Assembly (NCBI RefSeq): GCF_014192215.1
Contig: NZ_JACHXP010000001.1
Span: 1-64,000 of the forward strand
Direction of reading: 5' to 3'
Length of the DNA stretch: 64,000 nucleotides
Source: Halomonas cerina
GTDB lineage: Bacteria > Pseudomonadota > Gammaproteobacteria > Pseudomonadales > Halomonadaceae
Positions 1,021 to 18,082 of this stretch are shown piece by piece. Numbering within the stretch: the first letter of the stretch is position 1; the number at the start of each line of letters is the position of its first letter. The notes below the pieces were generated by a model. The model did not search any database and was not told where the DNA came from. It saw only the letters and a list, made by a program, of their open reading frames with translations. The position numbers and the translations under genes are program-made.

Positions 1021-3201
1021 GTGACAGAGCAGTCCCCTTCGACGCACACAGGCCCACAGGATATTGATCTCAATCACTTCGTCGGCTGGCTGCTCGATCA
1101 CAAGTGGTTGATTGCCTTGAGCGTGATGCTGTTCGGCATCGGCGGTTACCTGTATGCCGGCGCACAGCCGCGCATTTACAGCGCCGATTCGCTGATTCAG
1201 GTTGAAAGCGAGAACAGTTCGCTGATCAATCTGTCGGGAGGGCCCGGGCAGGGTGGGGTCGGGCAGAACCGCACGCTCACCGAGATCGGCATACTGCGCT
1301 CACGAATGGTGCTGGGAGAGGCCGTCGACCGTGAGACCCTGACCCTCGGTGTCACGCCCAGGCGCTTTCCCCTGCTCGGCAACTTCCTGGTCAACAAGGG
1401 CGTGACCTTACCCCCTTTCCTGGCGGGCCAACCCTATGTCTGGGCGGGGGAGTTCGCCGAGGTGTCGCGCTTCGAGGTACCGGAAGAGGCGGCGGGTGGG
1501 CCCTATATCCTCCGCGCCCAGGGCCAGGGACGTTACACCCTGCACCAGGGGGGGCGCCGCGTGCTGACCGGCCAGGTAGGTGAGACGGTCCACGGCGACG
1601 CCGGCCATCGCCTCTTCGTGCAGCGCCTCGAGGCCCATGCGGGGGCCGAGTTCCAGCTGCATCTCAGTAGCCGGCTGGGGGCCATCAACGGACTGAAGTC
1701 GCGGTTCAGCAGCATGCAGGCGGAAGGGGTCTGGCTGGTGAGCCTCAACTTGACGGGGGAGGACCCGGCGAGCATCGAGCGCACGCTCAATACCATCATG
1801 CAGGTCTTTCTGGCCCAGAATATCGAACGTCAGTCGGCGGAGGCCGATCGACAGCTTGAATTTCTGGAAGAGCAGATCCCCCAGGTCGGTGACCAGCTGG
1901 CCGCTTCGGAAACTGACCTTAACAGCTATCGCGTCCAGCACGACTCCGTGGACCTAGACTTCCAGACCGAGGCCTTGCTGAATTCGCTAGTGGCGATCGA
2001 GAATCAGCTGGCGGATCTCGAGTTCAGGCGGCTCGAGCTGCAGCTACGTATTACTCGCGTCCACCCCACCTACCAGGCGCTGCTTGAGAAGCGTCAGCAG
2101 TTGCAAGCCAACAAGGCCGAGCTGGAGGCCCGCATCGAAGAGCTGCCTGATGCCCAGCAGCAGGTCCTCCGCCTGGAGCGCGCCACACGGGTCAATCAGG
2201 AGATCTATGTTCAGCTGCTCAACAAGCAGCAGGAGATGCGCCTGGTCAAGGCGGGGGCCATCGGCAACGTCAGGATACTCGACGCGGCGGTGGTCCAGCC
2301 GGGTCCCATTGCGCCGCGATCGGACGTGATTCTGCTGATGAGCCTGCTGCTGGGACTGGGAGTGGCCGTGGCCATCGTCATGGTCCGCTACGTGCTGAAC
2401 CGCGGGATCGAAACGCCTAAACAGCTCGGGGCGCAGGGCCTGCCGGTCTATACCACCATCCCGCTCTCCAGAGAGCAGAGGCGACTTGCCCATGGGGTGC
2501 GGTCGGGAGAGCGTCGGCCTCATGGCGCGGAGGGGGCCGACGTGTTGGCCCTGCGCAGCCCTACCGACCTGGCGGTCGAGGCGCTACGGAGTCTGCGCAC
2601 CAGCCTGCACTTCACCATGCTGGAGGCCCCTGACAATCGGCTCATGATCACCGGGCCCGCCACGGCCGTGGGCAAGAGCTTCCTGTGCATTAACCTGGCG
2701 GCGGTATTTGCGCAGGTGGGCAAGCGGGTGCTGGTGATCGACGGGGACATGCGCAAGGGGCATATCCATGAGGTCTTTCATGGTGAAAGTGACGGCGGGC
2801 TTTCCGACCTGCTGGTCGGCCAGCTGACTCTGCAGGAGACCATCCGGGGGACCGAGGTGCCGGGGCTGGACTATATCGCCCGCGGCTTCTTGCCGGATAA
2901 CCCTTCCGAGTTGCTGATGCGAGAAAGCTTCACCCGGCTGCTGGCGGAGGCGTCATCAGGTTACGACTTGGTGATCATCGATACGCCGCCGGTGCTAGCG
3001 GTGACGGATGCCGCCATCGTCGGTAAGCAGGTGGGGACCAGCCTGCTGGTCGCGCGGTTCGGCATGACGCCTCCGGGCGAGATAGAGGCCACGATAGAGA
3101 AACTGGAAAACAGCGGTGTGGTGCTCAAGGGCGCCATCCTCAATGGCATGCAGCGCAAGGCGTCGACCAAGTACAGCTATTATAACTACGCCTACAAGTA
3201 A
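1021..3201 (+). CDS. wzc: Wzc-type polysaccharide co-polymerase / tyrosine autokinase
   Basis: Inner-membrane protein that controls EPS chain length and export through cycles of tyrosine phosphorylation. The N-terminus has a Wzz-type domain (DIDLNHFVGWLLDHKW followed by a first membrane helix), a large periplasmic region with coiled coil, a second membrane helix near residue 440 and a C-terminal BY-kinase domain. Walker A is GPATAVGKS (about residues 545-553), Walker A' is VLVIDGDMRKG, Walker B is LVIIDTPP. The C-terminus is a tyrosine cluster, YSYYNYAYK, the autophosphorylated tail. I chose GTG 1021 (AAGG seven bases upstream, normal family N-terminus); GTG 982 in the same frame is possible. 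First gene of the EPS locus; its usual partners wza and wzb are not in the window. Confidence 0.92.
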   Translation: MTEQSPSTHTGPQDIDLNHFVGWLLDHKWLIALSVMLFGIGGYLYAGAQPRIYSADSLIQVESENSSLINLSGGPGQGGVGQNRTLTEIGILRSRMVLGEAVDRETLTLGVTPRRFPLLGNFLVNKGVTLPPFLAGQPYVWAGEFAEVSRFEVPEEAAGGPYILRAQGQGRYTLHQGGRRVLTGQVGETVHGDAGHRLFVQRLEAHAGAEFQLHLSSRLGAINGLKSRFSSMQAEGVWLVSLNLTGEDPASIERTLNTIMQVFLAQNIERQSAEADRQLEFLEEQIPQVGDQLAASETDLNSYRVQHDSVDLDFQTEALLNSLVAIENQLADLEFRRLELQLRITRVHPTYQALLEKRQQLQANKAELEARIEELPDAQQQVLRLERATRVNQEIYVQLLNKQQEMRLVKAGAIGNVRILDAAVVQPGPIAPRSDVILLMSLLLGLGVAVAIVMVRYVLNRGIETPKQLGAQGLPVYTTIPLSREQRRLAHGVRSGERRPHGAEGADVLALRSPTDLAVEALRSLRTSLHFTMLEAPDNRLMITGPATAVGKSFLCINLAAVFAQVGKRVLVIDGDMRKGHIHEVFHGESDGGLSDLLVGQLTLQETIRGTEVPGLDYIARGFLPDNPSELLMRESFTRLLAEASSGYDLVIIDTPPVLAVTDAAIVGKQVGTSLLVARFGMTPPGEIEATIEKLENSGVVLKGAILNGMQRKASTKYSYYNYAYK

Positions 3202-3529
3202 GCCGATTACCCCATTAAGAACTTCTTTCCCAACCATTCAGACAGTGTGGGCTTTTCCGTCGGCAAGGCTTGGCGAGCGCGCTGTGAATCCCTCCCTGGG
3301 CGCTACCTTTGCCCTGCGGCGCTCTCGCGTCCTGCTCCGCTTGCAGGGCCTGGGTTGGCCATCCATGGCCAACCCGTTCGGCGGGAAGAACATCCACTGG
3401 ATGTTCTTCTACTTCCGCCTCACCCATGGCAAAGGACACTCGCTTCGCCTTGCCCCCGGTGCCCACTATGGCTGGGGTTAAAAGGAGCTCTCAACAGGAC
3501 TTCCTGTACAACACGAGTCTCTTTTCATT
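3202..3529. repeat. Intergenic element with consecutive perfect palindromes
   Basis: The 328 bp between wzc and the sugar transferase hold no convincing gene but are highly structured. Arms GCCCTGC (3311-3317) and GCAGGGC (3343-3349) pair; 3352-3362 pairs perfectly with 3365-3375 (11-bp arms, 2-nt loop); 3386-3396 pairs perfectly with 3398-3408 (11-bp arms, 1-nt centre). Stacked hairpins of this kind resemble dispersed intergenic repeats (REP/ERIC-like). In a co-directional operon the element could act in RNA processing or partial termination after wzc. No second copy was noticed in the window. Confidence 0.55.
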
Positions 3530-4816
3530 ATGGTCACGATGGCTTCCGCCTTTCCGGGGCAGGGGCAGCATTCGCGTTATTTCAAGCGATTATTCCATAA
3601 CGGCAAGCTGCAGTTATGGCTGGGGGGCATGCTCACCGTGCTGCTGCCGTCGCTGGCGGCCTGGGGAGGCGCCTTCTGGCAGACGGCCGATGCCACGCAG
3701 TGGCTGACCTTGCTGCTTATAGCGCTGGCTTACTGGAGCGCGATGACGACCGTGCAGCGCATGGGGCGCTTACCGGGCACTTGCGCCTACCTGCTGAGCC
3801 TACCGGCCGCCACGGTCTGTTATCTGGTGCCCTACCTCGTGGTGCAGGGGACGGAAAATGCCCTGCATCTTCGGCTCTATGTCGCCAGCTACTTGCTCAC
3901 GGCGCTGTACTGTACCGCCGGCTACTGGTTCGGACGCCGTTACCGGGTGCTCAAGCTGGCCGTGGTGCCTTTCGGCAAGGCCCCCGGGCTATGCCACAAC
4001 CATGGCGTGGAGTGGCTCAGCCTGCGTGCCCCGACCCTGGGCCAGGCCTACGTGGATGCGGTGGTCGCCGACCTGTGCACCGAGCTACCGCCGGAGTGGG
4101 AGCGTTTCCTGGCGGACTGCACCCTGGAGCGGATACCCGTCTACCACGTCAGCAGCACCTATGAGTGGCTGACCGGCCGGGTCCAGATCGGCTATCTTCA
4201 CGAGAATCGCTACGGTAGCCTGCAGCCGGATGAAGGCTATCAGGTGATCAAACGTGGCCTGGACCTGCTCATCGTGCTGGCCCTACTGCCCGTGGCGCTG
4301 CCGTTGATGGCTATCATCGCCACTGCTATCCGCCTGGACAGCCGGGGGGCGGCGTTGTTCGCCCAGCAGCGCATGGGGTTTCAGTGCCGCCCCTTCACGG
4401 TTTACAAGTTTCGCAGCATGTTCTGTGATCGCCAGGGGGCCGGTTTTACTCGGCATGGCCACGACCCGCGCATCACGCGTGTTGGCCGGGTGATCCGCAA
4501 GTATCGGCTGGATGAGCTGCCGCAGCTGTTCAATGTGCTAAAGGGGGAGATGAGCCTGATTGGCCCGCGACCGGAGTGCATGGACCTGGCCGACTGGTAT
4601 CAGAAGGATGTGGCGTTCTTTCACTATCGTCATGTGGTGCGTCCTGGCATCTCCGGCTGGGCCCAAGTGGAGCAGGGCTACGCCGCCGAGGTGGAGGGCA
4701 TGGTCCGCAAGTTGGAGTACGACTTCTATTACATCAAGAACATCTCGTTCTGGCTCGACCTGCTGATCGTGCTGCGCACCATCCGCACCGTATTGACCGG
4801 TTTCGGCTCGCGCTGA
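3530..4816 (+). CDS. Undecaprenyl-phosphate sugar-1-phosphate transferase (polyprenyl PGT)
   Basis: Starts lipid-linked repeat-unit synthesis by moving a sugar-1-phosphate from a nucleotide sugar to undecaprenyl phosphate at the inner membrane. The N-terminal half has several hydrophobic segments and a degenerate nucleotide-binding-like region, as in WcaJ/WbaP-type enzymes. The C-terminal bacterial sugar transferase domain starts at YQVIKRGLDLLIVLALLPVA and carries VYKFRSM, LDELPQLFNVLKGEMSLIGPRPE and RPGISGWAQV, the family signature. At 428 aa it is slightly shorter than WcaJ. The start (ATG 3530, or 3539) has no strong Shine-Dalgarno sequence. The transferred sugar cannot be read from sequence. 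Confidence 0.9.
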   Translation: MVTMASAFPGQGQHSRYFKRLFHNGKLQLWLGGMLTVLLPSLAAWGGAFWQTADATQWLTLLLIALAYWSAMTTVQRMGRLPGTCAYLLSLPAATVCYLVPYLVVQGTENALHLRLYVASYLLTALYCTAGYWFGRRYRVLKLAVVPFGKAPGLCHNHGVEWLSLRAPTLGQAYVDAVVADLCTELPPEWERFLADCTLERIPVYHVSSTYEWLTGRVQIGYLHENRYGSLQPDEGYQVIKRGLDLLIVLALLPVALPLMAIIATAIRLDSRGAALFAQQRMGFQCRPFTVYKFRSMFCDRQGAGFTRHGHDPRITRVGRVIRKYRLDELPQLFNVLKGEMSLIGPRPECMDLADWYQKDVAFFHYRHVVRPGISGWAQVEQGYAAEVEGMVRKLEYDFYYIKNISFWLDLLIVLRTIRTVLTGFGSR

Positions 4817-4892
4817 GCGACACCGCCGGCCTGGCCTTTCGTCACGATACGCGCCCTCTACCCAGGCGCGTTCTACCCAGGCACCCCTTTCC

Positions 4893-6704
4893 ATGCTGAG
4901 TCAGCTCAAGGAACTCTACACTCTTCTCACCGCCGAGCAGCGCAGGAAGCTGCTGCGCCTGCAGGGGCTGGTGGTACTGATGTCCATTGCCGAGATCGCT
5001 GGGGTGGTGTCCATTGGTCCCTTCATGGCCCTGGTGGGTGACATGAGCCAGCTGCAGGGCGAGGGAATGATCGCCGGGCTTTACCATGCCAGCGGTGTCG
5101 AGACGCCACGCGCCTTTCTGTTCTGGCTGGGCATTGGAGTGCTGGTGGTGCTCACCGGGGCGGCGCTGGTCTCGATGTTCACCATCTGGCGGCTCTCCAT
5201 GTACGGGGCGCGGGTCGGGGCCGAGCTGTCCAGTCGGCTCTATCGCCACTACATGCATCAGCCTTGGCTGTTCCACGCCACGGGCAGCAGCAGCCAGCTG
5301 ACCAACCAGATCGCCCAGGAGTGCGGACGAATCACCAATGGGATCATCAATCCGCTGATGCAGATGAATGCCAAGCTGGTGATGGCCTTGCTGATGTCAT
5401 TGGCGATCTTTCTCTACAACCCGCTGGTCGCGCTGGCCGGGTTGGGGATCTTCTCCGCCGCCTACATTCTGCTTTACCGCACAGTGCGAAAACGCCTGAT
5501 TCGCAATGGTAAGACGATTTCCGGTGTTCAGCGTCAGCGCTTCCAGCTGATGGGAGAAGGGTTCGGCGGCATCAAGGATGCGTTGCTGCTAGGGCGCCAG
5601 CAGTGGTTCACCGAGCGTTTCGACAGGGCCTGCGAGCGCTTCGCCAGGGCGCAGGGCACCAATCAGGCCATGAGCCAGGCGCCCCGCTACGCCATGGAGT
5701 TGGTGGCGTTCGGCAGCGTGATCTTTCTGGTGCTCTATCTGTTGGCCGTTCACCAAGGCAACCTGGGCACCATTCTGCCGGTGCTCTCCGTCTACGCCCT
5801 GGCAGGCTTCAAGCTGCTGCCGGCCTTTCAGCAAGTCTATACCAGTGTCTCGCGCATCCGCGGCAACCTGGCGGCCTTCGAGGGGTTGCGGGATGACCTG
5901 CGCGCCAGTGCCCTGATGCCACCGGCCATACCTAGCCACCAGCCTCGTAAGCCGCGAGCAGACAGCTGGGCGCCGCACCATGCTATTCGGTTGGAAAACG
6001 TCAGCTTCACCTATCCCGGCAAGCAGCAGCCGGCGTTGAAGGGGGTGGACCTGGAGATACCGGTCAATCGGGTGATTGGTCTGGTGGGGGCCTCCGGTTC
6101 CGGCAAGTCGACCGCCATCGATCTGCTGCTGGGACTGATCGAGCCGTGCCGGGGCCAGCTCTTGGTGGATGGGCGGCCGGTGACAGCCGGTAACCGCCGT
6201 GCCTGGCAGAACGCCCTGGGGTTCGTGCCCCAGGCGATCTTCCTGGCGGACAGCAGCATCCGCGAGAACATCGGCTTCGGGTTGCCGCCCGATATCATCG
6301 AGGACGATAAGGTTCGGCATGCGGCCCACCTGGCGCATCTGGATGAGCTGCTAAACGAGCTGCCCGAGGGGCTGGAAACCCGGGTCGGTGAGCGCGGCGT
6401 GCAGTTGTCCGGTGGTCAGCGTCAGCGTATCGGGATTGCCCGGGCGCTCTACCACGACGCGGAGGTGCTGATCCTGGACGAAGCCACCAGTGCCCTGGAT
6501 GGCATCACCGAGAACGCCATCATGAAGGCTATCCATGACTTCTCTGGCAAGAAGACGGTCATCATGGTGGCCCATCGCCTGGCGACAGTTAGGCAGTGCG
6601 ACCACATCTATCTGCTTTCCGGAGGGCAGGTCGTGGATCAGGGCAATTATCCATCCTTGTTGAAGCACAGCAGGACGTTCCAGCGCATGGCGCAACATGC
6701 ATAA
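4893..6704 (+). CDS. PglK-like ABC transporter (probable lipid-linked oligosaccharide flippase)
   Basis: A half-transporter of 603 aa with an N-terminal six-helix exporter domain and a C-terminal ATPase. Walker A is GASGSGKST, the signature is LSGGQRQRIGIARAL and Walker B is VLILDEATSALD, followed by the VAHRLATV switch. The N-terminus (SIAEIAGVVSIGPFMALVGD) resembles PglK/WlaB, which flip undecaprenyl-linked oligosaccharides, more than the lipid A flippase MsbA. No Wzx-type flippase was found in the locus, so this protein is the best candidate for translocating the repeat unit. The assignment to PglK rather than a generic exporter is inference. Confidence 0.8.
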   Translation: MLSQLKELYTLLTAEQRRKLLRLQGLVVLMSIAEIAGVVSIGPFMALVGDMSQLQGEGMIAGLYHASGVETPRAFLFWLGIGVLVVLTGAALVSMFTIWRLSMYGARVGAELSSRLYRHYMHQPWLFHATGSSSQLTNQIAQECGRITNGIINPLMQMNAKLVMALLMSLAIFLYNPLVALAGLGIFSAAYILLYRTVRKRLIRNGKTISGVQRQRFQLMGEGFGGIKDALLLGRQQWFTERFDRACERFARAQGTNQAMSQAPRYAMELVAFGSVIFLVLYLLAVHQGNLGTILPVLSVYALAGFKLLPAFQQVYTSVSRIRGNLAAFEGLRDDLRASALMPPAIPSHQPRKPRADSWAPHHAIRLENVSFTYPGKQQPALKGVDLEIPVNRVIGLVGASGSGKSTAIDLLLGLIEPCRGQLLVDGRPVTAGNRRAWQNALGFVPQAIFLADSSIRENIGFGLPPDIIEDDKVRHAAHLAHLDELLNELPEGLETRVGERGVQLSGGQRQRIGIARALYHDAEVLILDEATSALDGITENAIMKAIHDFSGKKTVIMVAHRLATVRQCDHIYLLSGGQVVDQGNYPSLLKHSRTFQRMAQHA

Positions 6705-6857
6705 AAGAACGTAAATTTGCCTTTTCTGGGCAAGCTCTTTTTGGGAAAAGCAGCTACATAAACAAAACCCGATCGGCAACGTTCATGTCAGGGCCAACTG
6801 GGCTGACGTGGCGCGCTGCTTGCGTGGCGATTCTTCAAAAGGGCAAGGGAGAATACC

Positions 6858-7859
6858 ATGATCAATACCATACTCGTGACCGGCGGCGCCGGGTTTCTGG
6901 GCTCGCACCTCTGCGAGCGGTTGCTGAATGAAGGCAACAACGTCATCTGTGTCGACAACTTCTCGACGGGAAGCAAGGACAATATCCTGCATCTGCACGG
7001 CAATCCGAGGTTCGAGATCATACGCCACGATATCAATTTCCCCCTCTATGTAGAAATCGATCAGATCTATAATCTCGCCTGTCCGGCAAGCCCCGTGCAC
7101 TATCAGCTCGACCCGGTGCAGACCATCAAGACGAATGTCCACGGCTCGATCAATCTTCTGGGACTGGCCAAGCGCACCAAAGCTAAAATTCTTCAGGCTT
7201 CGACGAGCGAAGTCTATGGCGACCCGGAGGTGCACCCTCAGCCTGAATCCTATTGCGGCATGGTCAATCCCATCGGCAGAAGGAGCTGTTATGACGAAGG
7301 TAAGCGCTGCGCCGAAGCGCTGTTCTTCGATTACTATCGACAGTACAATCTTGATATAAAAGTGGCGCGTATTTTCAATACCTACGGACCACGGATGCAT
7401 CCTGACGATGGACGCGTGGTCAGCAACTTCATCATGCAGGCCCTACAGGGCAAGGAGATCACCATCTATGGAGATGGCCATCAGTCGCGTAGTTTCTGCT
7501 ATGTCGATGACCTGGTGGATGGGCTGATTCGACTCATGAATACCGACAAGGTGGTCGGACCTGTCAATCTCGGAAACGATGGCGAGTTCTCGATGCGCGA
7601 GCTGGCGGAAAAGGTGATCCGGCTCACGGGCAGCCATAGCCAGCTCAGCTACCACCCCTTGCCCATGGATGATCCCAGGCAGCGCCGGCCGGAGCTCGGC
7701 CAGGCCAGGGAAAAGTTGGGCTGGCAGCCCACCGTGGCACTGGAAGAGGGGTTGAAGGCGACGATCGACTATTTTGCCGGCCTGTTGCAACGCCATGGTG
7801 ACGCCGTGAATGTCAACGCGGATGTCAACATACCGGAGCTTGCCGTCAAGGCATCTTGA
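6858..7859 (+). CDS. UDP-glucuronate decarboxylase (UDP-xylose synthase)
   Basis: Extended short-chain dehydrogenase that converts UDP-glucuronate to UDP-xylose with bound NAD. The N-terminal Rossmann motif is [16 protein letters not shown]; the catalytic Tyr-Lys is in SCYDEGKR after the substrate loop [21 protein letters not shown] and [10 protein letters not shown] are typical of bacterial UXS enzymes. The length (333 aa) is normal. The start is set by AAGGGAG upstream of ATG 6858. It uses UDP-glucuronate made by Ugd at the far end of the locus (29106), so the polymer probably contains xylose or a derivative. Confidence 0.9.
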
Positions 7860-7978
7860 AACGAGTCCGGCACGCCTACGCTGACCTTTCCTGAGATAGT
7901 GTTGCCTTGAGAAATTGTATGGCCAAGCCTGTGATAATGTTCGTGAAGAAAGTGGTGAACAACGTCATCAGGGGGGCG

Positions 7979-9154
7979 ATGAAGAAAACTCCTGTTCTTC
8001 TGGAGCATGTTTGGTTTGTGAGCCCTAGGCGCTCCAGGTTTTCTTCGTGGTATCAGGATACGGTGACGGCACAAGACTGGTTTGTGGAGGCGGCCAGTGC
8101 TCAAGAAATGTTGGCCGTGCAGCCGAAGTGGAAAGGCAACAAAAAAGTCACGTATTCTGGCGTCAGTGTTTTGTCCAAGGCCAAGCTGTTGATGTGTCGA
8201 CCGCCGGAGATTCATCAAAGGCACCCTGCCTCACGAAAGGCCATTGTCTGTACCCGGCATTACCGACCATTGAAGTATCCAGGTGCGCAGTCGGTATTGT
8301 TTTCATTGAACTTCATGTTGACTCATTTCGGCATCTGGCGCAATGGGAAAAAAATGGAGCACCTGTCTGCCACGGTAGCCTTGTTAGGCAATCGCGTTTT
8401 TGACAATATCAATTATTACCATTTCTGGGCCGACGTAATTGCCGATGTCTGGTATATAAAAAATAATCTACCTCGGTCAGAGTGGCCAGATTATTATCTT
8501 GTGCCTTTCGCAGAGCTGGCCTGGCAGTGGGAAGTGTTATGGCAGTGTGGTGTAAGGGAGGAGCAAGTAATACCTTATGCCAAGTACGACGTCCTGTTTG
8601 TTGAAAAGGTCGTTATTCCGATTCGCGACAAGGGGGCTGCAAATCTTCCTCCGTGGCTATCTCGTGCAATTCATGACATGTCGGGGTGGTCACCTAGGTC
8701 AGGGGGAAATGGACGGTTGGTCTTCGTGTCGCGAGCCGATGCCAGTCGGCGAAGACTTGTCAATGAAGATCGACTGCGGGAGCGCCTTCGCCAAGAAGGG
8801 TTTGAAGTGCATGCCTTAACAGGATTGAGTATTAAGGAGCAGCAACATCTTTTTTCCTCTGCCTCGATAATTTGTGCGCCTCATGGTGCATCTCTGACAA
8901 ATCTGGTGTGGTGTTGCCCTGGTACTGTGGTCATCGATTTTCTTTCAGAGCGGCACCTGGTGCCTTGTTTTAAAGAGTTGGCGGAACAAAACCAGGTGAT
9001 CTATTATCCTTATGTTTGCCGGGCGGCAGCAGAAGACGAGGGTGGTATTAATGATGACATGGTGTTGCTAGATGGCCAAATTGAGTCGGTGGTAGAGGTT
9101 GTCAGCCGGCATGTTGGGACATCCGGCCACGCTTTGGATATCAGAAAAGGATAG
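7979..9154 (+). CDS. Glycosyltransferase family 61 (DUF563) protein
   Basis: Predicted glycosyltransferase of about 391 aa. The GT61-type signatures are NYYHFWADVIADVW (around residue 150), a RLVFVSRADASRR strand-loop and the C-terminal APHGASLTNLVWCCPGTVVIDF block. I chose ATG 7979 because AGGGGGGCG lies directly upstream and the protein then starts MKKTPVLLEHVWFV; the frame extends to TTG 7907. The DNA is visibly more AT-rich than wzc or pgm, as for several neighbouring glycosyltransferases, suggesting acquired specificity genes. Donor and acceptor sugars are unknown. Confidence 0.8.
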   Translation: MKKTPVLLEHVWFVSPRRSRFSSWYQDTVTAQDWFVEAASAQEMLAVQPKWKGNKKVTYSGVSVLSKAKLLMCRPPEIHQRHPASRKAIVCTRHYRPLKYPGAQSVLFSLNFMLTHFGIWRNGKKMEHLSATVALLGNRVFDNINYYHFWADVIADVWYIKNNLPRSEWPDYYLVPFAELAWQWEVLWQCGVREEQVIPYAKYDVLFVEKVVIPIRDKGAANLPPWLSRAIHDMSGWSPRSGGNGRLVFVSRADASRRRLVNEDRLRERLRQEGFEVHALTGLSIKEQQHLFSSASIICAPHGASLTNLVWCCPGTVVIDFLSERHLVPCFKELAEQNQVIYYPYVCRAAAEDEGGINDDMVLLDGQIESVVEVVSRHVGTSGHALDIRKG

Positions 9155-9217
9155 CGCCTCAGGTTAATCGGGTCTTTTTGAGGTTCTGGTGCGAGAACCG
9201 GATGGGAGAGTGCACAA

Positions 9218-10219
9218 GTGGAAGCAAATTCCGACAGCCTTGTATCCATGATTGTGCCAGCTTACAATGTAGAGGATTATATAAATGGATGTGTGGAGTC
9301 ACTTGTTCATCAGTCACATCCTGATCTCGAGATTATCGTCGTCAACGACGCGTCGACCGACAAGACCTCCGGTGCGGTGCTGGAAGGTTTCACGCGTGAT
9401 AGCCGCGTGAGGCTTATTGACCTAGAGCATAATGTGGGAGTCCATGCCGCTCGAGCGAGAGGGATTCGCGAGGCACGAGGACGCTTTATCGGGTTTGTCG
9501 ATAGTGATGACAAAGTCGCACCACACATGGTGGAGCGCCTGTTTGAGGTGGCGCAGGCCCATCATGCTGACATTGTCGTATGTGGTGCAGAGAAGGTGTC
9601 TGAATCAGGCGAATCTCTCGGCAGGAAAGTAAGATTTACGCATTCCTTTGCTCGTCATCATCATCTTCTGGAAGCTTTTTGCAGTAGGCAATATGGCTCC
9701 GGGGTGCTTTGGAATAAATTATACAAAGCAGAGCTGATAAAAAAGCATGGCACGATACCTCTGGATAGAAAAGTCGATGCCTCTGAAGATTATGTAGTAA
9801 ATGTCGGTTGTTTTTCTGAAGCGACATGTGTTGCCACGGTCGCCGATACGCTGTATTTTTATTTGATACGAGCTGACAGCGCTTCTCGTAACGAAGATAA
9901 GGCCAGGCACTTTGTTCGAATCATGGCGGCATATGCAAGCTGCCTTGAGATTTATGCAGATTTCTCACCGCAGCAGAAGGAAGAGGTGACCAAGCTGTTT
10001 GCGAGCCAGCTTTGTTTTAGTGATTACCAAATTCACGCGGTGGAGCAGCTGTATCGCCATGACGAGAATTTGAGGGAAAGCCTTTCGAGCCTGTCAGCGC
10101 TGTATCCGGCGGGGGTGTATACGCTTATTCACGCGTTTCACCGGCCAGAAAATGCCAGTAACCACGGTTTCATAAAATATGCCGGCCAAGTGCATAAAGC
10201 TATAAGAAAATGGTTTTAA
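9218..10219 (+). CDS. Family 2 glycosyltransferase
   Basis: GT-A fold enzyme of 333 aa. The N-terminus VSMIVPAYNVEDYINGCVES, the nucleotide-binding VVNDASTD and the metal-binding GFVDSDDKV are classical GT2 motifs, and the C-terminal half is helical. The start is GTG 9218 with GGGAGAG upstream; ATG 9248 would cut into the first beta strand. AT-rich codon use resembles its neighbours. It is cytoplasmic or membrane-associated and probably adds one sugar to the lipid-linked repeat unit. Confidence 0.88.
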   Translation: MEANSDSLVSMIVPAYNVEDYINGCVESLVHQSHPDLEIIVVNDASTDKTSGAVLEGFTRDSRVRLIDLEHNVGVHAARARGIREARGRFIGFVDSDDKVAPHMVERLFEVAQAHHADIVVCGAEKVSESGESLGRKVRFTHSFARHHHLLEAFCSRQYGSGVLWNKLYKAELIKKHGTIPLDRKVDASEDYVVNVGCFSEATCVATVADTLYFYLIRADSASRNEDKARHFVRIMAAYASCLEIYADFSPQQKEEVTKLFASQLCFSDYQIHAVEQLYRHDENLRESLSSLSALYPAGVYTLIHAFHRPENASNHGFIKYAGQVHKAIRKWF

Positions 10220-10300
10220 GAGCAGTCCGGTTCTTGGGTCCGTTGTTGGATCACGTGCGACTATAAATGACAATCTCTTGACGGGCCACTAGGTAGGACG

Positions 10301-11242
10301 ATGCTTAAGGCACTGGCAAAAAAAATACCGGGGGCCCACCGTGGCTACGATGCTGTGGTCGTGGTGCGTCGCAATCTAGCGAATGAGCTTAAGGTTTGGA
10401 AGCTGTTGCAACATCAGCGCCAGCCGTTTATCGGCAACCCCGATTCCAATGTTGTTGTCAGCTTGACCTCGTTTCCGGCCCGGATCCATCATGCCTGGAT
10501 TACGGTTGAAACTCTGTTTCAGCAAGAGTTCAAGCCTTGGAAAGTAGTGTTGGTGCTTGCGGAAGAAGAGTTTCCCGAAAAGAAACTGCCCAAGAGGTTG
10601 CGAGCACAGACCGAGCGTGGACTCGAGGTATTATGGACAAAAAGAAACACTCGCAGCTATAAGAAACTGTTACCGACCCGCAACCACTACCCCGATGCCA
10701 CGATCGTCACGTTTGATGACGACGTGTACTATGAGCCATGGCGCCTTGGGCAGTTAGTCGAGGCATCACGGCGATATCCAGAAAGTGTGATTGGTCATAG
10801 AGGGCGGGAAGTCACGTTGGGTCGGACTGGCTTGCTTCCCTATATTGAATGGAAATACGCGACGCTCTCGACGCCTTCCCACCGCACCCTATTAACAGGC
10901 GTCGGGGGGATTCTCTATCCCCCCCATATTTTAGACCATGACTTGCTGTTGGATCGGAAGCGTGCCATGAGATATTGCCCCACTGCGGATGATATCTGGT
11001 TCTGGGCGGTTTGCCTCAAGTCCGGCACGTCAGTCCGGTGCTTGGGGCACTCTGCTCGTTGCCAGGTCAAAAAGGAGCTTGCTCGGCACTCTCTGGATGC
11101 GGTTAATCGCGTAGGGGGACAGAACGATGTTCAGTTGAAAAACGTGATCGATGGTTTGCAGCTGTGGCCTACCGTGATGCGTGGTGAATGTCAGGCCAGG
11201 CCGATGGAGTCGGCCCGGCTGCCAACAAGTCTTTACCAATAA
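10301..11242 (+). CDS. Putative glycosyltransferase (GT-A-like, SLTSFPARI family)
   Basis: Protein of 313 aa with the block VVVSLTSFPARIHHAWITVE (residues 51-70), a RSYKKLLP motif and TIVTFDDDVYY with DDD at 139-141, then HRG. This pattern is seen in a family of predicted glycosyltransferases in capsule and LPS clusters; the aspartates probably bind a metal and nucleotide sugar. GGTAGGACG precedes the ATG. It lies between two GT2 genes and nearly abuts the next one. Activity is inferred from motif and context only. Confidence 0.65.
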   Translation: MLKALAKKIPGAHRGYDAVVVVRRNLANELKVWKLLQHQRQPFIGNPDSNVVVSLTSFPARIHHAWITVETLFQQEFKPWKVVLVLAEEEFPEKKLPKRLRAQTERGLEVLWTKRNTRSYKKLLPTRNHYPDATIVTFDDDVYYEPWRLGQLVEASRRYPESVIGHRGREVTLGRTGLLPYIEWKYATLSTPSHRTLLTGVGGILYPPHILDHDLLLDRKRAMRYCPTADDIWFWAVCLKSGTSVRCLGHSARCQVKKELARHSLDAVNRVGGQNDVQLKNVIDGLQLWPTVMRGECQARPMESARLPTSLYQ

Positions 11243-11271
11243 ACTCCGAGTCGGTCGTTTTGGTGGTCATC

Positions 11272-12141
11272 GTGGATGAGCCCGTATTGGTTTCTGTCAT
11301 TATCCCTACATATCGTGACTGGCAGCGCCTGCAGCAATGTCTTGGTGCGCTGGCCCATCAGTCGATGCTTGACAAAGAATACGAAGTGGTCGTTGTGAAT
11401 AACGATCCTGACGACGCGCCTCCGGCCGGCTGGTGCTTACCCAAAAACGTTAGAATGCTTCAGGAGCGCAAGCCGGGTGCGTACGCGGCAAGAAATGCAG
11501 GATTGAAAGCTGCTAGAGGACAGTTTTTGGCCTTTACGGACTCTGATTGCCTGCCTCAGCCGGACTGGCTAACACATGGTATCGCAGCTCTCGTAGCCGA
11601 TAATGCAGATCGAGTAGCCGGGTGCATTGAGGTATTGAGTGATAACAAGAAAATGACGCCGACGGAGTGCTATGAAAGCCTTTTTGCCTTTGATCAGCCG
11701 CAGAATGTCACCCGCGGCGTGGGCGTGACGGCGAACCTGCTGGCACGTGCTAATTTGTTTGACACGGTGGGGATGTTCAATGAGGACTTACTGTCAGGTG
11801 GCGACATCGAGTGGAATCGCCGTGCCACGGCAATGGGATATACGATCAGGTATTGCCAGCAGGCGGTTGTCGGGCATCCGGCGCGTCGTACCTGGTCGGA
11901 AATGGCTCGCAAGGTGCGAAGAACCACGGGAGGTAAGTTGGCGATCAATCCCCAGTATCGCCTCACTATTTTCAGGTCGCTATGCCCCCCTCTCGAGGCT
12001 AGTGCCCATATTGCAAGACAGGACGGCGCCTTCCTGCGCACAAGAATGTTGGCCTTCTGGGTGGCCTATCGTATCAAGGTGTTTCGCTACTTCTACTTTC
12101 GGAAGTTGAAATCGGGCCGCTGTGCGGCCGAGAGGGGTTGA
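11272..12141 (+). CDS. Family 2 glycosyltransferase
   Basis: GT2 enzyme of about 289 aa from GTG 11272 (GGTGG five bases upstream); a longer form from GTG 11188 would overlap the preceding gene by 55 bp. Motifs are VSVIIPTYRDWQRLQQCLGA, VVVNNDP, GAYAARNAGLKAARGQFLAF and the metal-binding TDSDCLPQPDW. The later SGGDIEWNRRATAMGY segment is the acceptor-side ED-type motif of this group. It overlaps the start region of the following GT4 gene, so the two are probably co-translated. Confidence 0.85.
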   Translation: MDEPVLVSVIIPTYRDWQRLQQCLGALAHQSMLDKEYEVVVVNNDPDDAPPAGWCLPKNVRMLQERKPGAYAARNAGLKAARGQFLAFTDSDCLPQPDWLTHGIAALVADNADRVAGCIEVLSDNKKMTPTECYESLFAFDQPQNVTRGVGVTANLLARANLFDTVGMFNEDLLSGGDIEWNRRATAMGYTIRYCQQAVVGHPARRTWSEMARKVRRTTGGKLAINPQYRLTIFRSLCPPLEASAHIARQDGAFLRTRMLAFWVAYRIKVFRYFYFRKLKSGRCAAERG

Positions 12142-12148
12142 CCCAGGG

Positions 12149-13237
12149 GTGAAGATCGCGATCGTGCTACCAGACCTTCGCGGGGGAGGGGTCGAGCGTA
12201 TCCGGCTGTCGCTGGCGGGCGAGTTCCGCCGGCTGGGACATGGCGTCGAGTTCGTGCTGATGCAGGCGCAGGGTGAGTTGCTTAGCGAAGCGATGGCCTC
12301 CTTTGCGGTGCACGATCTTGCCTGTCGCCGTATCCGTCAGCTGCCTTGGGCGCTCGCTCGGTACCTTAGGCGTTACCAGCCCGACGCGCTGCTTGTGGCC
12401 ATGTGGCCGCTGACAGTCGTCGCGCCCTTGGCGTCTAGGCTTTCCGGTCATCCTTGTGACGTGCTGATATCGGAGCACAACACGCTATCGGCACAGTACG
12501 CGGCCCAGGGGTCGCTGCATTTGCGGCTGCTTCGCTTCAGTATGGCCTTGGGGTACCGGCTTGCCCGGTCGCGCGTGGCGGTGTCGGAGGGCGTGTCACG
12601 CGATCTGGCGGCGCTTTCCGGGCTCGAGCGAGACCGCTTCACGGTGATCCATAACCCGGTGCCATGTCGTCCCCCTCCCAGCCGGGAGGCCATGGCCAGG
12701 GCAACTGCGTGTTGGGGAATAGCCGGCGGACAGCGCATCGTATCGGTGGGAAGTTTCAAGCCACAAAAGAATCATGCCATGCTGCTGCGTGCCTTTGCGA
12801 GACTGGAAAGACGTAATGCACGACTCATGTTGGTAGGCGCTGGCGCCGAAGAAGATGAGCTGCGCCGGCTTGCGGTTGAGCTGGATATTGGCCACAAGGT
12901 GATTTTTGCCGGTTTCCATGCAGACCCCACTCCTTTTTACTTGACAGCGGATCTCTTCGTACTAGCTTCGGATTTTGAAGGGTTTGGCAATGTCATCATT
13001 GAAGCCTTGGCGTGCGGAACTCCCGTCGTATCGACCAATTGTCCTTCCGGACCCGCTGAAATATTGAAGCATGGCGAGTATGGTCGTCTGGTGCCGGTAG
13101 GCGATGATACGGCCATGGCGGATGCCTTGGCGGATGCCTTGGCGTCCGAGCATGATACCCAACGACTGAAAGCCAGGGCCACAGAGTTTTCGCCGGCGAT
13201 AGCGGCAAGCAAGCACCTCGACTTGTTAGCTAAGTGA
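12149..13237 (+). CDS. Family 4 glycosyltransferase (GT-B)
   Basis: Retaining GT-B glycosyltransferase of about 362 aa. The N-terminal domain starts VKIAIVLPDLRGGGVERIRLS with the glycine-rich acceptor loop; the C-terminal nucleotide-binding domain carries SVGSFKPQKNHAMLLRAFARL and FEGFGNVIIEALACGTPVV with the conserved EX7E pattern. GTG 12149 was chosen because GAGAGGGG lies upstream; the frame opens at 12122, inside the previous gene. GC content is higher than in the flanking AT-rich genes. Confidence 0.88.
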   Translation: MKIAIVLPDLRGGGVERIRLSLAGEFRRLGHGVEFVLMQAQGELLSEAMASFAVHDLACRRIRQLPWALARYLRRYQPDALLVAMWPLTVVAPLASRLSGHPCDVLISEHNTLSAQYAAQGSLHLRLLRFSMALGYRLARSRVAVSEGVSRDLAALSGLERDRFTVIHNPVPCRPPPSREAMARATACWGIAGGQRIVSVGSFKPQKNHAMLLRAFARLERRNARLMLVGAGAEEDELRRLAVELDIGHKVIFAGFHADPTPFYLTADLFVLASDFEGFGNVIIEALACGTPVVSTNCPSGPAEILKHGEYGRLVPVGDDTAMADALADALASEHDTQRLKARATEFSPAIAASKHLDLLAK

Positions 13238-13257
13238 ATCACGGTATCTGATCGTGT

Positions 13258-13977
13258 ATGCGTGACTTTCGTTTATCAAAGAATGTGTTGACGTCGCCTG
13301 CCTTTTTTGTAGAGTTTGTGGGGCCGGCAGGCAGCGGAAAGTCAACATTGATTGATTATATACGGCGTCGTCATGGACATGAGTTTTCCCATGTCGGCGT
13401 GCCGCACCGCTCAATTTTTCATAGAGCCAAGTCTCGGATTATTGAAGAAATCTTCACGAGGCGAACTTTTGACGGTCATGATTTGGATGGTTTTTCAAAA
13501 GATAGGCTGGTAAAAAGGTTTTCGAAAATCAATGCAGGCCTTGACTGGTATGCTGACCGTCGAAGTGGCATCTTTTTGCTTGACGAAGGGCCGTTGCGCA
13601 TCATGATGGATTATTCTTGTCATAACCAGAATCAGTACAGGATATGGCGTAATTTTTGCCTGAGGGCTTTGCAACGTTTTTCGCATTATCGTGTCCTAGT
13701 GATTTTCGTCAAGGTGCGTCCAGAAACTCGGCACGAGTGGAGAAAGAAAAGAATGGGGCCTCTGGAAATGGCTAACCCGAATTTCAATCCACACTTCAGA
13801 GGAGAGTGTCCGACCCCGGGAGAGCTTTTGTTCTTTCGAGAAGAGGCCAAGCGGACCCTGGCTAGCCGCATGTTTGAGCATGTTGCAATGGATGAGTTGG
13901 AGAATCAAGGCGATGTGGACGAGGTAGCAGCCCGTGCGCGCCAGTTGATACACGCCTATTGCAGTAGAGAGCCTTGA
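13258..13977 (+). CDS. P-loop NTPase/kinase-like protein of unknown function (paralogue A)
   Basis: Protein of 239 aa with a clear Walker A, GPAGSGKST (22-30), a Walker B-like LLDEG (107-111) and a downstream VIFVKVRPETRHEW segment, the arrangement of small nucleoside- or adenylylsulfate-kinase-like proteins. The same three elements occur at nearly the same residue numbers in the protein at 14596-15363, so the two look homologous. The gene is AT-rich and lies directly before a sulfotransferase pseudogene. A role in activating a sulfate or phosphate donor for EPS is speculative; no exact family was recognised. Confidence 0.6.
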   Translation: MRDFRLSKNVLTSPAFFVEFVGPAGSGKSTLIDYIRRRHGHEFSHVGVPHRSIFHRAKSRIIEEIFTRRTFDGHDLDGFSKDRLVKRFSKINAGLDWYADRRSGIFLLDEGPLRIMMDYSCHNQNQYRIWRNFCLRALQRFSHYRVLVIFVKVRPETRHEWRKKRMGPLEMANPNFNPHFRGECPTPGELLFFREEAKRTLASRMFEHVAMDELENQGDVDEVAARARQLIHAYCSREP

Positions 13978-13982
13978 AGGAA

Positions 13983-14585
13983 TGCTGACACTCAAGGACA
14001 GAGCAGAGGTCTGGTTGAAGCACCTCCAGTTTCACTGGGAAATGGTAGCCGTGTTTCCAGTGCCTTGTTTGGTGAGCCCGTAGGACATCGACCTATCCGT
14101 CACCACCTGGCCTATGCGCCTGATCTTGTAGATAATTACTTCACCTTTACTTTCGTTCGAAATCCCCGGGAACGTTTGTATTCAGGATATCATTACTTTG
14201 CGAGTCGCGCCGGATCCGATGGGCATCGGGATCATCGCTGGGCCAGCGTCATGTTATCGGAGGTTTCCTCATTTCGAGAGTTCGTAATTCTTCTTGAAAA
14301 CTCGGCTTATGCCAGTCAGTGAATCCGGTCAGCGGTGAGCTGATGATGGATTTTATCGAGCGTTTCGAACAGCTGGAGCGAGATTTTTCACATGTGAGCC
14401 ATTGTCTGAGTGCTCAGGTGATACTGCCGCATCTTCGCAAGGGGCCCTAGGGCGCATACCTTGACGCTTATGATGCGCATATGGTGGAGGTGGTGCGGTG
14501 CTTTTATGCCACCGATGTTGAGCGGCTAGGTTATGAATTCAAAGAGCGCGCAGGGGTATCATCCCGCAATAGCAAGCACCTGTAA
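13983..14585 (+). pseudogene. Degenerate sulfotransferase (Sulfotransfer_2-like)
   Basis: Remains of a carbohydrate sulfotransferase split by several lesions. Frame 1 carries SRVSSALFGEPVGHRPIRHH and FTFTFVRNPRERLYSGYHYF (to the TGA at 14320-14322), the 3'-phosphate-binding block of PAPS-dependent enzymes. The homologous reading then moves to another frame near 14310-14318 and continues VNPVSGELMMDFIERFEQLE, ERDFSHV and LPHLRKGP, where a TAG (14448-14450) interrupts it before DVERLGYEF. The 5'-phosphosulfate loop region at the N-terminus is also eroded and out of frame. One frameshift and one nonsense codon are directly visible. The organism may once have sulfated this polysaccharide. Confidence 0.75.
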
Positions 14586-14595
14586 ATGAAAAATC

Positions 14596-15363
14596 ATGAT
14601 GTCACACACGCAGGGTATCGTAGAAATCATCGGCCCCACCGGCGCAGGTAAGACCGCGCACCTCAAGGCGCTGAGCAACGAGGCGCCTTTCTTTATTGAA
14701 GCTCGACACCGTGTTCGTCAGCATCTGTTCATGCTGGTTAGATCAACCATGGCCTGGGTTTTTCTGCAGCTGAGGTTTTGCTTTCTGGATGCCAGACTGT
14801 CTCTGTTCAAACGCATATGTGTCTATTATGCTGCGTTGAAGACGGTGGAGGAGGGCGATAAGAAGGCCTGCGAGAAGGGAAAGTCGCATGAAAAAGTTCA
14901 GCATGAGGTGCATCTAGTGGATGAAGGGGTTTTCCATGTTCTGTTGATGCATCGGTTTGCTTCACTGAAAGAGCAGGCGGCCTGGGCCTTTTTCTCCCGG
15001 CAGCAGATCTGCAGGCTGGCAAAAAACGAGAGCATTGTGATTTTTGTTCTGTCAGTATCTCGAGAGCGCCGCCACGAAAGGCTAAGAGTTCGTAATGAAA
15101 TAGAGTCGGAAAGATTGCGTGTGGCCAATCATCATAAAGGCGGAGCCTTTGGCCCACTGGGGGTGGAGTTTATTCGTTCGCTGGAATGTGAAGCGGCGGG
15201 TCGTGTAAAGGTGGTGGTGCTGGATAACAATGGTGAGGATAGTGTCGCCGCCAATGTGGCCATGATCCAGGCGATGCTGATGACCCAAGAGGAAGTTCTG
15301 GGGCCAGTGGGCGCGCCGGCCGCAGTAGAAGGGGCATGGAAGCGAAAGCATGGAGCTCTGTAG
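14596..15363 (+). CDS. P-loop NTPase/kinase-like protein of unknown function (paralogue B)
   Basis: Protein of 255 aa starting MMSHTQGIVEIIGPTGAGKT (Walker A at 13-20), with HLVDEG (106-111) and VIFVLSVSRERRHERLRVRN (RHE at 159-161). Its layout mirrors the protein at 13258-13977 and the two flank a sulfotransferase pseudogene. It ends at the TAG directly before the next GTG start, so expression is coupled. Function is unknown; a small-molecule kinase or NTPase acting on an EPS precursor or modification is possible. Confident as a gene, weak in function. Confidence 0.6.
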   Translation: MMSHTQGIVEIIGPTGAGKTAHLKALSNEAPFFIEARHRVRQHLFMLVRSTMAWVFLQLRFCFLDARLSLFKRICVYYAALKTVEEGDKKACEKGKSHEKVQHEVHLVDEGVFHVLLMHRFASLKEQAAWAFFSRQQICRLAKNESIVIFVLSVSRERRHERLRVRNEIESERLRVANHHKGGAFGPLGVEFIRSLECEAAGRVKVVVLDNNGEDSVAANVAMIQAMLMTQEEVLGPVGAPAAVEGAWKRKHGAL

Positions 15364-16635
15364 GTGAAAGGTGACATGCTACTTCCCAACGGTGGGACAA
15401 GCCGCAACGCTGCTACGTTGTTCATTACATATGATGGGTTGCTTGACCCGCTGGGAGGCAGCCAGATCCTGCCCTATCTGTACAGCATTGCAGAGCATCC
15501 ACGGGCCGTGCATGTCGTGAGTTTCGAAAAGCCTGTGCGGTTCGCCAACGGGGCCGCAACGCTTCGGTGCGAGTTGGAGAGGCGACAGATCGGCTGGACC
15601 CCGCTTACGTTCACGTCACGCCTGGGAAAGCTGGGGAAAGGCTGGGATCTGCTGCGCATGCACACGACAGCGCTCAGGCTGCAATGGCGTCATCGGTTCG
15701 GCGTGGTCCACTGTCGCAGCTATCCGGCCATGCAGGTGGGCTATTTCCTTCGCCGTCTCACCGGCGTGAAGACCATATTCGATATGCGGGGGCTGTGGGT
15801 CGATGACCGAGTGGAGGGTCAGCTATGGCCGCAGGAGCTCTGGCTCTACCGTCGGCTCTATCGCCATTACAAGCGCTTGGAGCAGCGGCTGCTGGAGGGG
15901 ACAGACGCGGTCGTCGTACTGACCGAGCGCGTGGTGCCAGAACTGCGTCGCCTGGCGCCTCGCATGCAGGCGCCCGTGACGGTGATTCCCTGCTGTGCGG
16001 ATTTCGATCATTTTTCAGCGGTAACGACGGCTCACAAGCGAACGACGCGTGCCGAGATCGGCATCCATAAGGACGCCTTGGTCATCGCCTATCTGGGATC
16101 GCTGGGTACCGTCTACCTGCTCGACGAGATGTTTCGCCTGTTCGAGACCATAGCGCGTCGGCGTGAGGATGCCCACCTGCTGCTGATCACCCAGGATTGG
16201 TCGGATCGGCATGAGGCACGCCTGGCCGCATCGTCGCTCACCGACCTTCGCCATCGCATTCATGTCAGGTCGGCGCATCGTGACGAGGTCCCCAGGGTGC
16301 TCGGCACTGCGGACATCATGTTGAGTTTTCGACGCGCCACCTATTCCCAGATGGCATGCTCACCGACGAAGCTCGCCGAGGCGTTTGCCCTAGGGATCCC
16401 GGCGATCAGCAATGCCGGCGTGGGCGATATCGATGCGCTCACCCGGATCCTGGATGCCGGCATGGTGATCGATCTGCATGACCCGGCCGCCTTCGAGCGC
16501 GTGGCCGCCAATCTCGACAGCCTACTGGCCAAGGGAGGGGGGCGGTTGCGTCATAGGGCGCAAAAGCATCTGGGGCTGGAAAGGGCCCGGCACGCCTATC
16601 GCCGGCTCTATGCGCAACTCGAGGCGATGCCATGA
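15364..16635 (+). CDS. Family 4-like glycosyltransferase (GT-B)
   Basis: Predicted GT-B glycosyltransferase of 423 aa. The N-terminal domain begins FITYDGLLDPLGGSQILPYL and contains VVHCRSYPAMQVGYFLRR and IFDMRGLWVDDRVEG; the C-terminal domain has AYLGSLGTVYLLDEM and MACSPTKLAEAFALGIPAIS. The start is GTG 15364, immediately after the upstream stop, with GGAG eight bases before it; ATG 15376 is an alternative. The stop overlaps the next start (ATGA), indicating translational coupling to the HAD gene. Confidence 0.8.
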   Translation: MKGDMLLPNGGTSRNAATLFITYDGLLDPLGGSQILPYLYSIAEHPRAVHVVSFEKPVRFANGAATLRCELERRQIGWTPLTFTSRLGKLGKGWDLLRMHTTALRLQWRHRFGVVHCRSYPAMQVGYFLRRLTGVKTIFDMRGLWVDDRVEGQLWPQELWLYRRLYRHYKRLEQRLLEGTDAVVVLTERVVPELRRLAPRMQAPVTVIPCCADFDHFSAVTTAHKRTTRAEIGIHKDALVIAYLGSLGTVYLLDEMFRLFETIARRREDAHLLLITQDWSDRHEARLAASSLTDLRHRIHVRSAHRDEVPRVLGTADIMLSFRRATYSQMACSPTKLAEAFALGIPAISNAGVGDIDALTRILDAGMVIDLHDPAAFERVAANLDSLLAKGGGRLRHRAQKHLGLERARHAYRRLYAQLEAMP

Positions 16636-17309
16636 GAGGCGAGCCTGAGCTCTATGTGGTGGATGTGTGCGGCACCCTGGTATTCGATGACACCACGCTG
16701 GGGCTCGTGCGCCACCACTTTGCCCGGGATGGCACGCGGCCGCTACGTGCCTGGTTGGTGAATGCGGTGGCTACCCCTCGCCGCCTCCCGTGGTGGGGGG
16801 TTGCCGTTGCCGAGAAGCTGACGGGACAGCAGCTGCTGAAGCACTTTGCCGTGCGTCTGCTGGCCGGAGAACGTAGCGAGGCCCTGGAGCAAAGCGCCCA
16901 GGAGTATGCCAAAAGGCTTTTGGCCGAGCGGCGCATCATCCCCGTCTGGGAGATGCTGGAGGCGCCGTTCGCGACAGGGCGCGTCGTGCTGGCCTCGGCC
17001 AGCCTGGAGCCGGTGGTGGCGGCCCTGGCCTCGCTGACCGGGGCACGGTATGTGGCCAGCCGTCTCGAGCAGCGCGACGGACGCCTGACCGGGAGCTATG
17101 CGACGGACCTGACCGGTCGCAAACCTCAGGCACTGGTCGAAAAGTATGGGGAGACGCTCCTGGAAAACCCGGTCAGTGTGATGACCGACAATGCCTCGGA
17201 TCGGGCCCTGGTCGAGAGGGCCTCGGTGGCGTATATCGTGCTCCACCGCGCGGCTCACCGTAAGCGCTGGCATGGGGTCGGGGCAAACGTTATCGAGATA
17301 CAGCCATGA
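16632..17309 (+). CDS. HAD-superfamily phosphatase-like protein with altered motif I
   Basis: Protein of 225 aa of the HAD IB (phosphoserine phosphatase-like) type. Motif I is DVCGT (residues 11-15), motif II the serine of VLASAS, motif III the lysine of GRKPQAL, and motif IV MTDNASD. The second aspartate of the usual DXD, the general acid/base, is replaced by Cys13, so it may be a slow phosphatase, a different phosphotransferase or inactive. It overlaps the genes on both sides by 4 bp (ATGA). Pairing with the UbiA-like membrane protein downstream suggests that they act on a common polyprenyl or phosphosugar substrate; this is inference. Confidence 0.7.
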   Translation: MRGEPELYVVDVCGTLVFDDTTLGLVRHHFARDGTRPLRAWLVNAVATPRRLPWWGVAVAEKLTGQQLLKHFAVRLLAGERSEALEQSAQEYAKRLLAERRIIPVWEMLEAPFATGRVVLASASLEPVVAALASLTGARYVASRLEQRDGRLTGSYATDLTGRKPQALVEKYGETLLENPVSVMTDNASDRALVERASVAYIVLHRAAHRKRWHGVGANVIEIQP

Positions 17310-18082
17310 GGCTTTGCTATCTCCTGCCGTTCAGCTACTTCCTGGACACTCGCCTTCGGGAAGGCAGCGTGGCTTTTCACTTGGTCTTCGAATGGCTGGC
17401 CGCGGTGGTGCTCGTCGTGGCGGTCGGCGCCGCGCCGCCGCCGCAGGCCCTGGCCATGGCAGGCCTTACCTACCTGGCGTTCATCAGCCTGTACGAGATC
17501 GGCTATCTCGCCAACGACCTGTATGCGGCCAGAAGGGAGCCGAGAGGGCGCCAGCGCGGGCCCCAGGCGATGGCACACGGCTGGGTACTGGCGTGGTGTA
17601 GCAGTCGTTTGGCGGTATTCGCGCTGGTCACGGTGTGGCTGGACCTGCTCGCGGTATCTGGTTGGTGGTCGTTCCATATGGCCCTGTGCCTCACCTTTGC
17701 CCTGCACAATGTCCTCCAGGATAGCGAGCTCAAGACTGCCACCTTCCTGTGGCTGGCGTGGCTGCGGTTCATGGCCCCGGTGATGTTCGTGGTGGAGGAT
17801 GGCCAGCGGCTCGGTATCGGGCTGGCGGCGGCACTCTCCTATGTGGTGTTTCGCCTGCTGGGCTATCTGGACAGCAAGGGCCTGCTGCGTATGCCCGGCA
17901 GACAGCGTGCGGCGTTCCGGTTGTTCTGCTTCGTTATGCCGCTCATCGGCCTACTGGCCCTCTGGCCTTATACAGGCGCCGAAGGCTTCATGGTGTTGAC
18001 GGGCTACTTTGCTGTGGCGGCGGCGGTGGGCACCCTGGCGGGGCCGGCGCTGGCGCGTGTCTCCGCGTTAATGGGCAGGTAG
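17306..18082 (+). CDS. UbiA-like polytopic membrane protein
   Basis: Integral membrane protein of 258 aa with about seven hydrophobic segments. The loop YEIGYLANDLYAARRE after the second or third helix resembles the NDXXD-type loop of UbiA prenyltransferases, in a reduced form. It starts within the stop of the HAD gene (ATGA overlap). HAD phosphatase plus UbiA-like protein is a recurrent pair in prenyl-phosphate sugar chemistry, so a role in making or modifying a polyprenyl-linked sugar is reasonable. The UbiA relationship is weak by eye; otherwise it is an unknown membrane protein of the EPS locus. Confidence 0.55.
   Translation: MRLCYLLPFSYFLDTRLREGSVAFHLVFEWLAAVVLVVAVGAAPPPQALAMAGLTYLAFISLYEIGYLANDLYAARREPRGRQRGPQAMAHGWVLAWCSSRLAVFALVTVWLDLLAVSGWWSFHMALCLTFALHNVLQDSELKTATFLWLAWLRFMAPVMFVVEDGQRLGIGLAAALSYVVFRLLGYLDSKGLLRMPGRQRAAFRLFCFVMPLIGLLALWPYTGAEGFMVLTGYFAVAAAVGTLAGPALARVSALMGR

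Follow-up and report, generated by a model that had tools for sequence, protein, structure and literature searches.

A decayed sulfotransferase gene between two P-loop proteins of predicted kinase fold in a Halomonas EPS cluster

The window considered here is a stretch of 64,000 nucleotides from contig 1 of a 4.17 Mb Halomonas genome. It contains an EPS cluster whose middle carries two intact P-loop proteins, termed A and B, with the remains of a sulfotransferase gene between them (Table 1). The cluster encodes a Wzc-like tyrosine autokinase, a priming sugar transferase, an ABC exporter, an NAD epimerase and a GT61 protein, together with GT2 and GT4 glycosyltransferases, a HAD-IB protein, a membrane protein, an asparagine synthase, an EpsG-like polymerase and a transglutaminase-like protein; the names of the exporter, epimerase, asparagine synthase and EpsG come from sequence reading, without a family scan. 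The middle of the cluster, at about 8000-16000, is lower in G+C than most of the window. Further downstream, at 16632-18082, a HAD-IB protein is followed by a multi-pass membrane protein without a family match, and this pair is kept in all four EPS clusters compared, one of them from another family. The region 17306-18082 was also considered as a UbiA prenyltransferase, an assignment which found no support in Pfam, NCBIfam or the PDB.

Table 1. Features of the A/sulfotransferase/B locus, with positions in the window and the evidence for each.
Feature	Position	Strand	Evidence
EPS cluster around A, the sulfotransferase pseudogene and B	982..~22043	+	family scans and sequence reading
Glycosyltransferase (GT4), upstream of A	12122..13237	+	synteny with A in 3 of 3 genomes
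P-loop protein A, 239 aa, intact	13258..13977	+	Walker A GPAGSGKS, FLLDEGP box, ETRHEWRKKR LID-like stretch
Sulfotransfer_2 pseudogene	13982..14585	+	three-frame tblastn, nucleotide alignment, Pfam
Junction of the ~100 nt deletion; frame shifted, 5'-PSB loop gone	14024..14044	+	tblastn, nucleotide alignment; exact breakpoint ambiguous
Junction of the 43-nt out-of-frame deletion; frame-1 TGA next at 14320	14311..14319	+	tblastn, nucleotide alignment
In-frame TAG, third pseudogene segment	14448..14450	+	reading frame, tblastn
P-loop protein B, 255 aa, intact; distant homologue of A	14596..15363	+	Walker A GPTGAGKT, HLVDEGV box, ERRHERLRVR LID-like stretch
Glycosyltransferase (GT4), downstream of B	15364..16635	+	H. 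stenophila homologue with a broken duplicate adjoining the intact sulfotransferase

A sulfotransferase gene was once present between A and B and has since decayed, as its lesions against an intact relative show. Comparison with related strains, which the earlier note had proposed, revealed this relative in H. stenophila. With its 240 aa protein as the tblastn query, three frames of the remnant were aligned at a joint E of 2e-57, covering residues 1-17 (frame 2, from 13982), residues 55-146 (frame 1, 14044-14319) and residues 161-239 (frame 3, 14319-14555); the longest piece is 68% identical to the intact protein. The frame-1 fragment still passes the Pfam model Sulfotransfer_2 (PF03567) with 22.6 bits, at a cut-off of 22, and the intact relative passes it with 41.2 bits. 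The remnant thus belongs to the same family as the Sulfotransfer_2 carbohydrate sulfotransferases found in marine and halophilic EPS and CPS clusters, and differs from them in that the copy here has been inactivated by loss of the PAPS loop, two frameshifting deletions and one nonsense codon.

The nucleotide alignment against two intact genes places two gaps in the pseudogene, one of 100 nt and one of 43 nt, and neither length is a multiple of three. The first covers IFIHIPKAAGSS of the intact H. stenophila protein, which we take, from general knowledge of the family, to be the 5'-PSB (PAPS-binding) loop. With this region deleted, two out-of-frame gaps and a TAG, the pseudogene has no complete open frame with a 5'-PSB loop, and even a translated product would be unable to bind PAPS. 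The decay, the frameshift near 14310-14318 and the stop codon at 14448 had already been read from the letters, and all three are confirmed by the alignments. The N-terminus, which had been described as eroded, is kept: the ATG at 13982 and the first 17 codons survive, so the gene was cut internally rather than worn away from its end. A sequencing error behind the broken frame, which the earlier note had named as one finding that would undo its reading, is ruled out, since two separate deletions and a nonsense codon would all be needed. A literature search on sulfotransferase pseudogenes gave nothing on this question.

The two flanking proteins, which the earlier note had called homologous, are paralogues, with homology that extends beyond their Walker A motifs. 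Pairwise BLASTP of A against B gives an E of 1e-4, and a profile-profile comparison gives a probability of 96.6% with an E of 5e-10. In Smith–Waterman alignments scored over shuffles, z lies between 4.6 and 12.8, and between 4.4 and 9.3 when the Walker A motif is removed. The earlier note had also placed three shared motifs at nearly the same residue numbers. The Walker A motif lies at residues 22-29 in A and 13-20 in B, and DEG at residues 109-111 in both. Of the 'ERRHE' motif, only E-x4-R is shared by all five family members. In these five known sequences, 21 columns are invariant, including the G, G and K of Walker A, DEG and E-x4-R. Both proteins evolve faster than most neighbouring genes. 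For A, dN is 0.50 with dS not estimable because of saturation, and for B, dN is 0.33 with a dS of 1.86; across the A and B comparisons dN ranges from 0.33 to 0.51, with synonymous sites saturated or nearly so. Values of dN well below a saturated dS fit purifying selection on both proteins.

In Pfam and NCBIfam scans, the only matches of A and B were to generic AAA/P-loop models, all below cut-off, apart from a Cytidylate_kin match over the P-loop region of A that was likewise below cut-off (E 0.29, Pfam). At E up to 1, neither protein matched the Pfam families of thymidylate kinase, adenylate kinase or PPK2, the NCBIfam models of thymidylate kinase or PPK2, or any HprK-related model in NCBIfam. 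Nothing relevant came from a literature search on HprK-related kinases in EPS clusters, and a PDB sequence search returned mostly Walker A noise.

Structure prediction, suggested in the earlier note as a check, points to a kinase-type fold for A and, from a weaker model, to the same kind of fold for B. The AlphaFold2 models of both proteins rest on five sequences. The model of A has a mean pLDDT of 70.6 and aligns with thymidylate kinase and PPK2 structures at Z 12.3-12.4 (rmsd 3.6-4.8 over 174-185 residues), including 2ccg at Z 12.3 (rmsd 4.8 over 185 residues); its best Foldseek E is 1.4e-6. The model of B is poor, with a mean pLDDT of 55.4, a Z of about 13 for PPK2 and overall Z values of about 11-13. 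A core like that of thymidylate and adenylate kinases, with Walker A after the first strand, is found in the model of A, and in B it is read from a low-confidence model. A and B are therefore both predicted to have a P-loop nucleotide-kinase fold of the thymidylate kinase/PPK2 type. In these models they would share with thymidylate kinase, adenylate kinase and PPK2 the Walker A motif after the first strand, an acidic pair ending the central strand and an arginine-rich lid. They differ from these enzymes in having no family-level sequence match, in carrying the DEG motif and in their known occurrence, which is limited to the EPS loci of three genomes of Halomonas.

It is highly improbable that A, B or both are partners of the sulfotransferase, acting in donor supply, removal of PAP or priming of the acceptor, so that the locus would be a dying sulfation module. 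The possibility draws on the P-loop fold class, which by general knowledge is common to sulfotransferases and kinases, and on the distribution of B, which was seen in only two genomes, both of which have a sulfotransferase gene at the locus, intact in one and dead in the other. This coincidence in two of two genomes makes a link of B alone a weak possibility. On the other side, H. korlensis carries A at the same place, with neither B nor a sulfotransferase at the locus, and its whole genome gave no match to Sulfotransfer_2 or Sulfotransfer_3. Moreover, the transferase here is dead, yet A and B show no decay.

The position of the sulfotransferase relative to A and B is not fixed either. The order here is A, the sulfotransferase pseudogene, B and a glycosyltransferase (GT), and in H. 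stenophila it is A-B-GT'-ST-GT, where ST is the intact sulfotransferase. GT' (10805-11257) lies directly before it and is a broken, incomplete second copy; over 492 nt it shares 84% identity with the complete GT (12194-13522) that follows the sulfotransferase. This order, with its broken GT', suggests that the sulfotransferase entered the H. stenophila locus separately. In another compared locus (2897-8827), several near-identical partial glycosyltransferase copies lie on the minus strand beside a sulfotransferase, as if the region were recombining often.

The sulfotransferase family itself is common, occurring in 55 of 369 genomes of the class. The neighbourhoods of 18 further sulfotransferases were covered by a profile search, which found no relatives of A or B in any of them. 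Six of these sulfotransferases come from the genus and order and twelve from the class, and some of the neighbourhoods were shorter than 20 kb where the contig ended. The earlier note had raised a role of the P-loop proteins in supplying or handling the sulfo donor, and this idea loses ground to these 18 neighbourhoods and to the lone A of H. korlensis. Dependence of A and B on the sulfotransferase is not supported.

The supply of PAPS leads to the same conclusion. Sulfotransferases of this family move sulfate from PAPS to a sugar. In the present genome, PAPS synthesis is of the ordinary kind, with CysD and a CysN/CysC fusion encoded on contig 23, away from the A/B locus, which speaks further against a donor-related role of A and B. 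The APS kinase CysC (PF01583) is, like A and B, a P-loop kinase and is present in some sulfation loci, but neither A nor B matched this Pfam model at E up to 1; three real APS kinases in these genomes, serving as positive controls, scored about 230 bits (about 1e-68). The reading of A and B as APS kinases was rejected for this lack of a family match.

Other sulfation genes occur in the same genome. The region 36000-55900 of contig 23 is a second polysaccharide locus with CysD, the CysN/CysC fusion and WecB/WecC-like genes. It also encodes an intact 1016-aa protein in which an N-terminal Sulfotransfer_2 domain is followed by a glycosyltransferase-like part, and the strain may retain a capacity for sulfation through this locus. 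A second APS kinase on contig 37 (6830-7276) lies at the end of an open frame starting inside CysN and looks like a truncated CysN/CysC copy.

In Cobetia marina, a sulfated CPS has been described together with sulfotransferase and PAPS genes (PMC11766843). A sulphated EPS has been reported from H. stenophila (PMC6268429, citing Llamas et al. 2011). The H. stenophila genome holds a second Sulfotransfer_2 gene at 678831 on the same contig and two Sulfotransfer_3 genes elsewhere on that contig, so the intact gene at the locus is one candidate among several for producing the sulphated EPS; a literature search on the sulfotransferase in H. stenophila gave nothing on this question.

A was found in three genomes and B in two. 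The orthologues of A are 48% (H. korlensis CGMCC 1.6981) and 42% (H. stenophila CECT 7744) identical to the protein here, and that of B in H. stenophila is 57% identical. Searches beyond these carriers found no relatives of A or B in plasmids or viral contigs and none of B in the 369 class genomes. A search with A against 398 genomes of the phylum yielded 14 foreign matches with E <= 0.01 (best 9.5e-4), and none of the eight examined resembles A, several being ABC transporters. A contig scan with narrow patterns returned only H. korlensis and H. stenophila. Little weight is given to the profile search of 293 genomes of the order, where nine candidates per genome were scored in a sample presumably without these two species. 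The search for distant relatives was a shallow one, based on single-sequence tblastn, narrow peptide patterns and profile scans with a capped number of candidates, and a broader family could extend beyond Halomonas, against the confinement seen here. The earlier note had counted wide occurrence of the P-loop proteins without a sulfotransferase as evidence against its idea; this applies only in part, since A does occur without one in one of its three carriers but neither A nor B is widespread.

The reading somewhat favoured over the others is that of a decayed EPS sulfotransferase beside two independent kinase-fold proteins which phosphorylate an EPS precursor or sugar. When alive, the sulfotransferase would have transferred sulfate from PAPS to an EPS sugar, with PAPS, where needed, coming from the CysD/CysNC proteins encoded elsewhere in the genome. 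Independently of it, A and B would each most likely use ATP to phosphorylate either a small glycan precursor or a sugar in the EPS unit as it grows. The earlier note had named a phosphorylation system as its alternative, and this half of its idea may hold. In this phosphotransfer mechanism, most likely given the fold and motifs, the Walker A lysine and Ser/Thr would act together with the DEG acidic pair ending the third strand, and the E-x4-R arginines would serve as a lid. Phosphorylation of an EPS precursor or sugar is probably the role of A and B, judging from predicted fold, motifs and genomic context, and it is a reasonable one because phosphate has been reported in some halophile EPSs (PMC6268429).

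Two other roles can be weighed against the same evidence. The best structural matches, which are to thymidylate kinase, adenylate kinase, PPK2 and deoxynucleoside kinases, would suit NMP or nucleoside kinases that raise the nucleotide pool for nucleotide-sugar synthesis instead of acting on glycans. This is nevertheless unlikely, given that the thymidylate kinase, adenylate kinase and PPK2 families are missing from the Pfam matches at E up to 1 and that A and B, in contrast to housekeeping kinases, evolve fast and are restricted to one lineage. In addition, A and B have DEG in what we take to be the place of the DR box of thymidylate kinases. A role of A and B without transferase activity, as regulators or assembly factors of EPS synthesis that bind ATP or GTP, is quite unlikely: although a P-loop alone is no sign of phosphotransfer, the conservation of DEG and E-x4-R suits the catalytic core of a kinase, and the predicted fold is that of a phosphotransferase.

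A bolder form of the glycan-kinase reading, fairly unlikely and offered tentatively, is that A and B form a new P-loop kinase family dedicated to Halomonas EPS, perhaps working as a pair, which phosphorylates a sugar of the EPS repeat, with sulfation and phosphorylation as interchangeable anionic decorations encoded at one locus.

The locus itself is best read as the variable middle of a modular Halomonas EPS operon, in which a decorating sulfotransferase came and went. The dead sulfotransferase here and the intact one in H. stenophila offer a natural comparison for what the enzyme adds to the polysaccharide. The find is a largely ordinary one, as the two genes beside the lost enzyme are intact and do not seem to need it. 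If A and B are indeed glycan kinases, they would account for the phosphate that has been reported in some halophile EPSs and provide a genetic handle on it; otherwise, this is a routine case of decoration genes being gained and lost at a polysaccharide locus.
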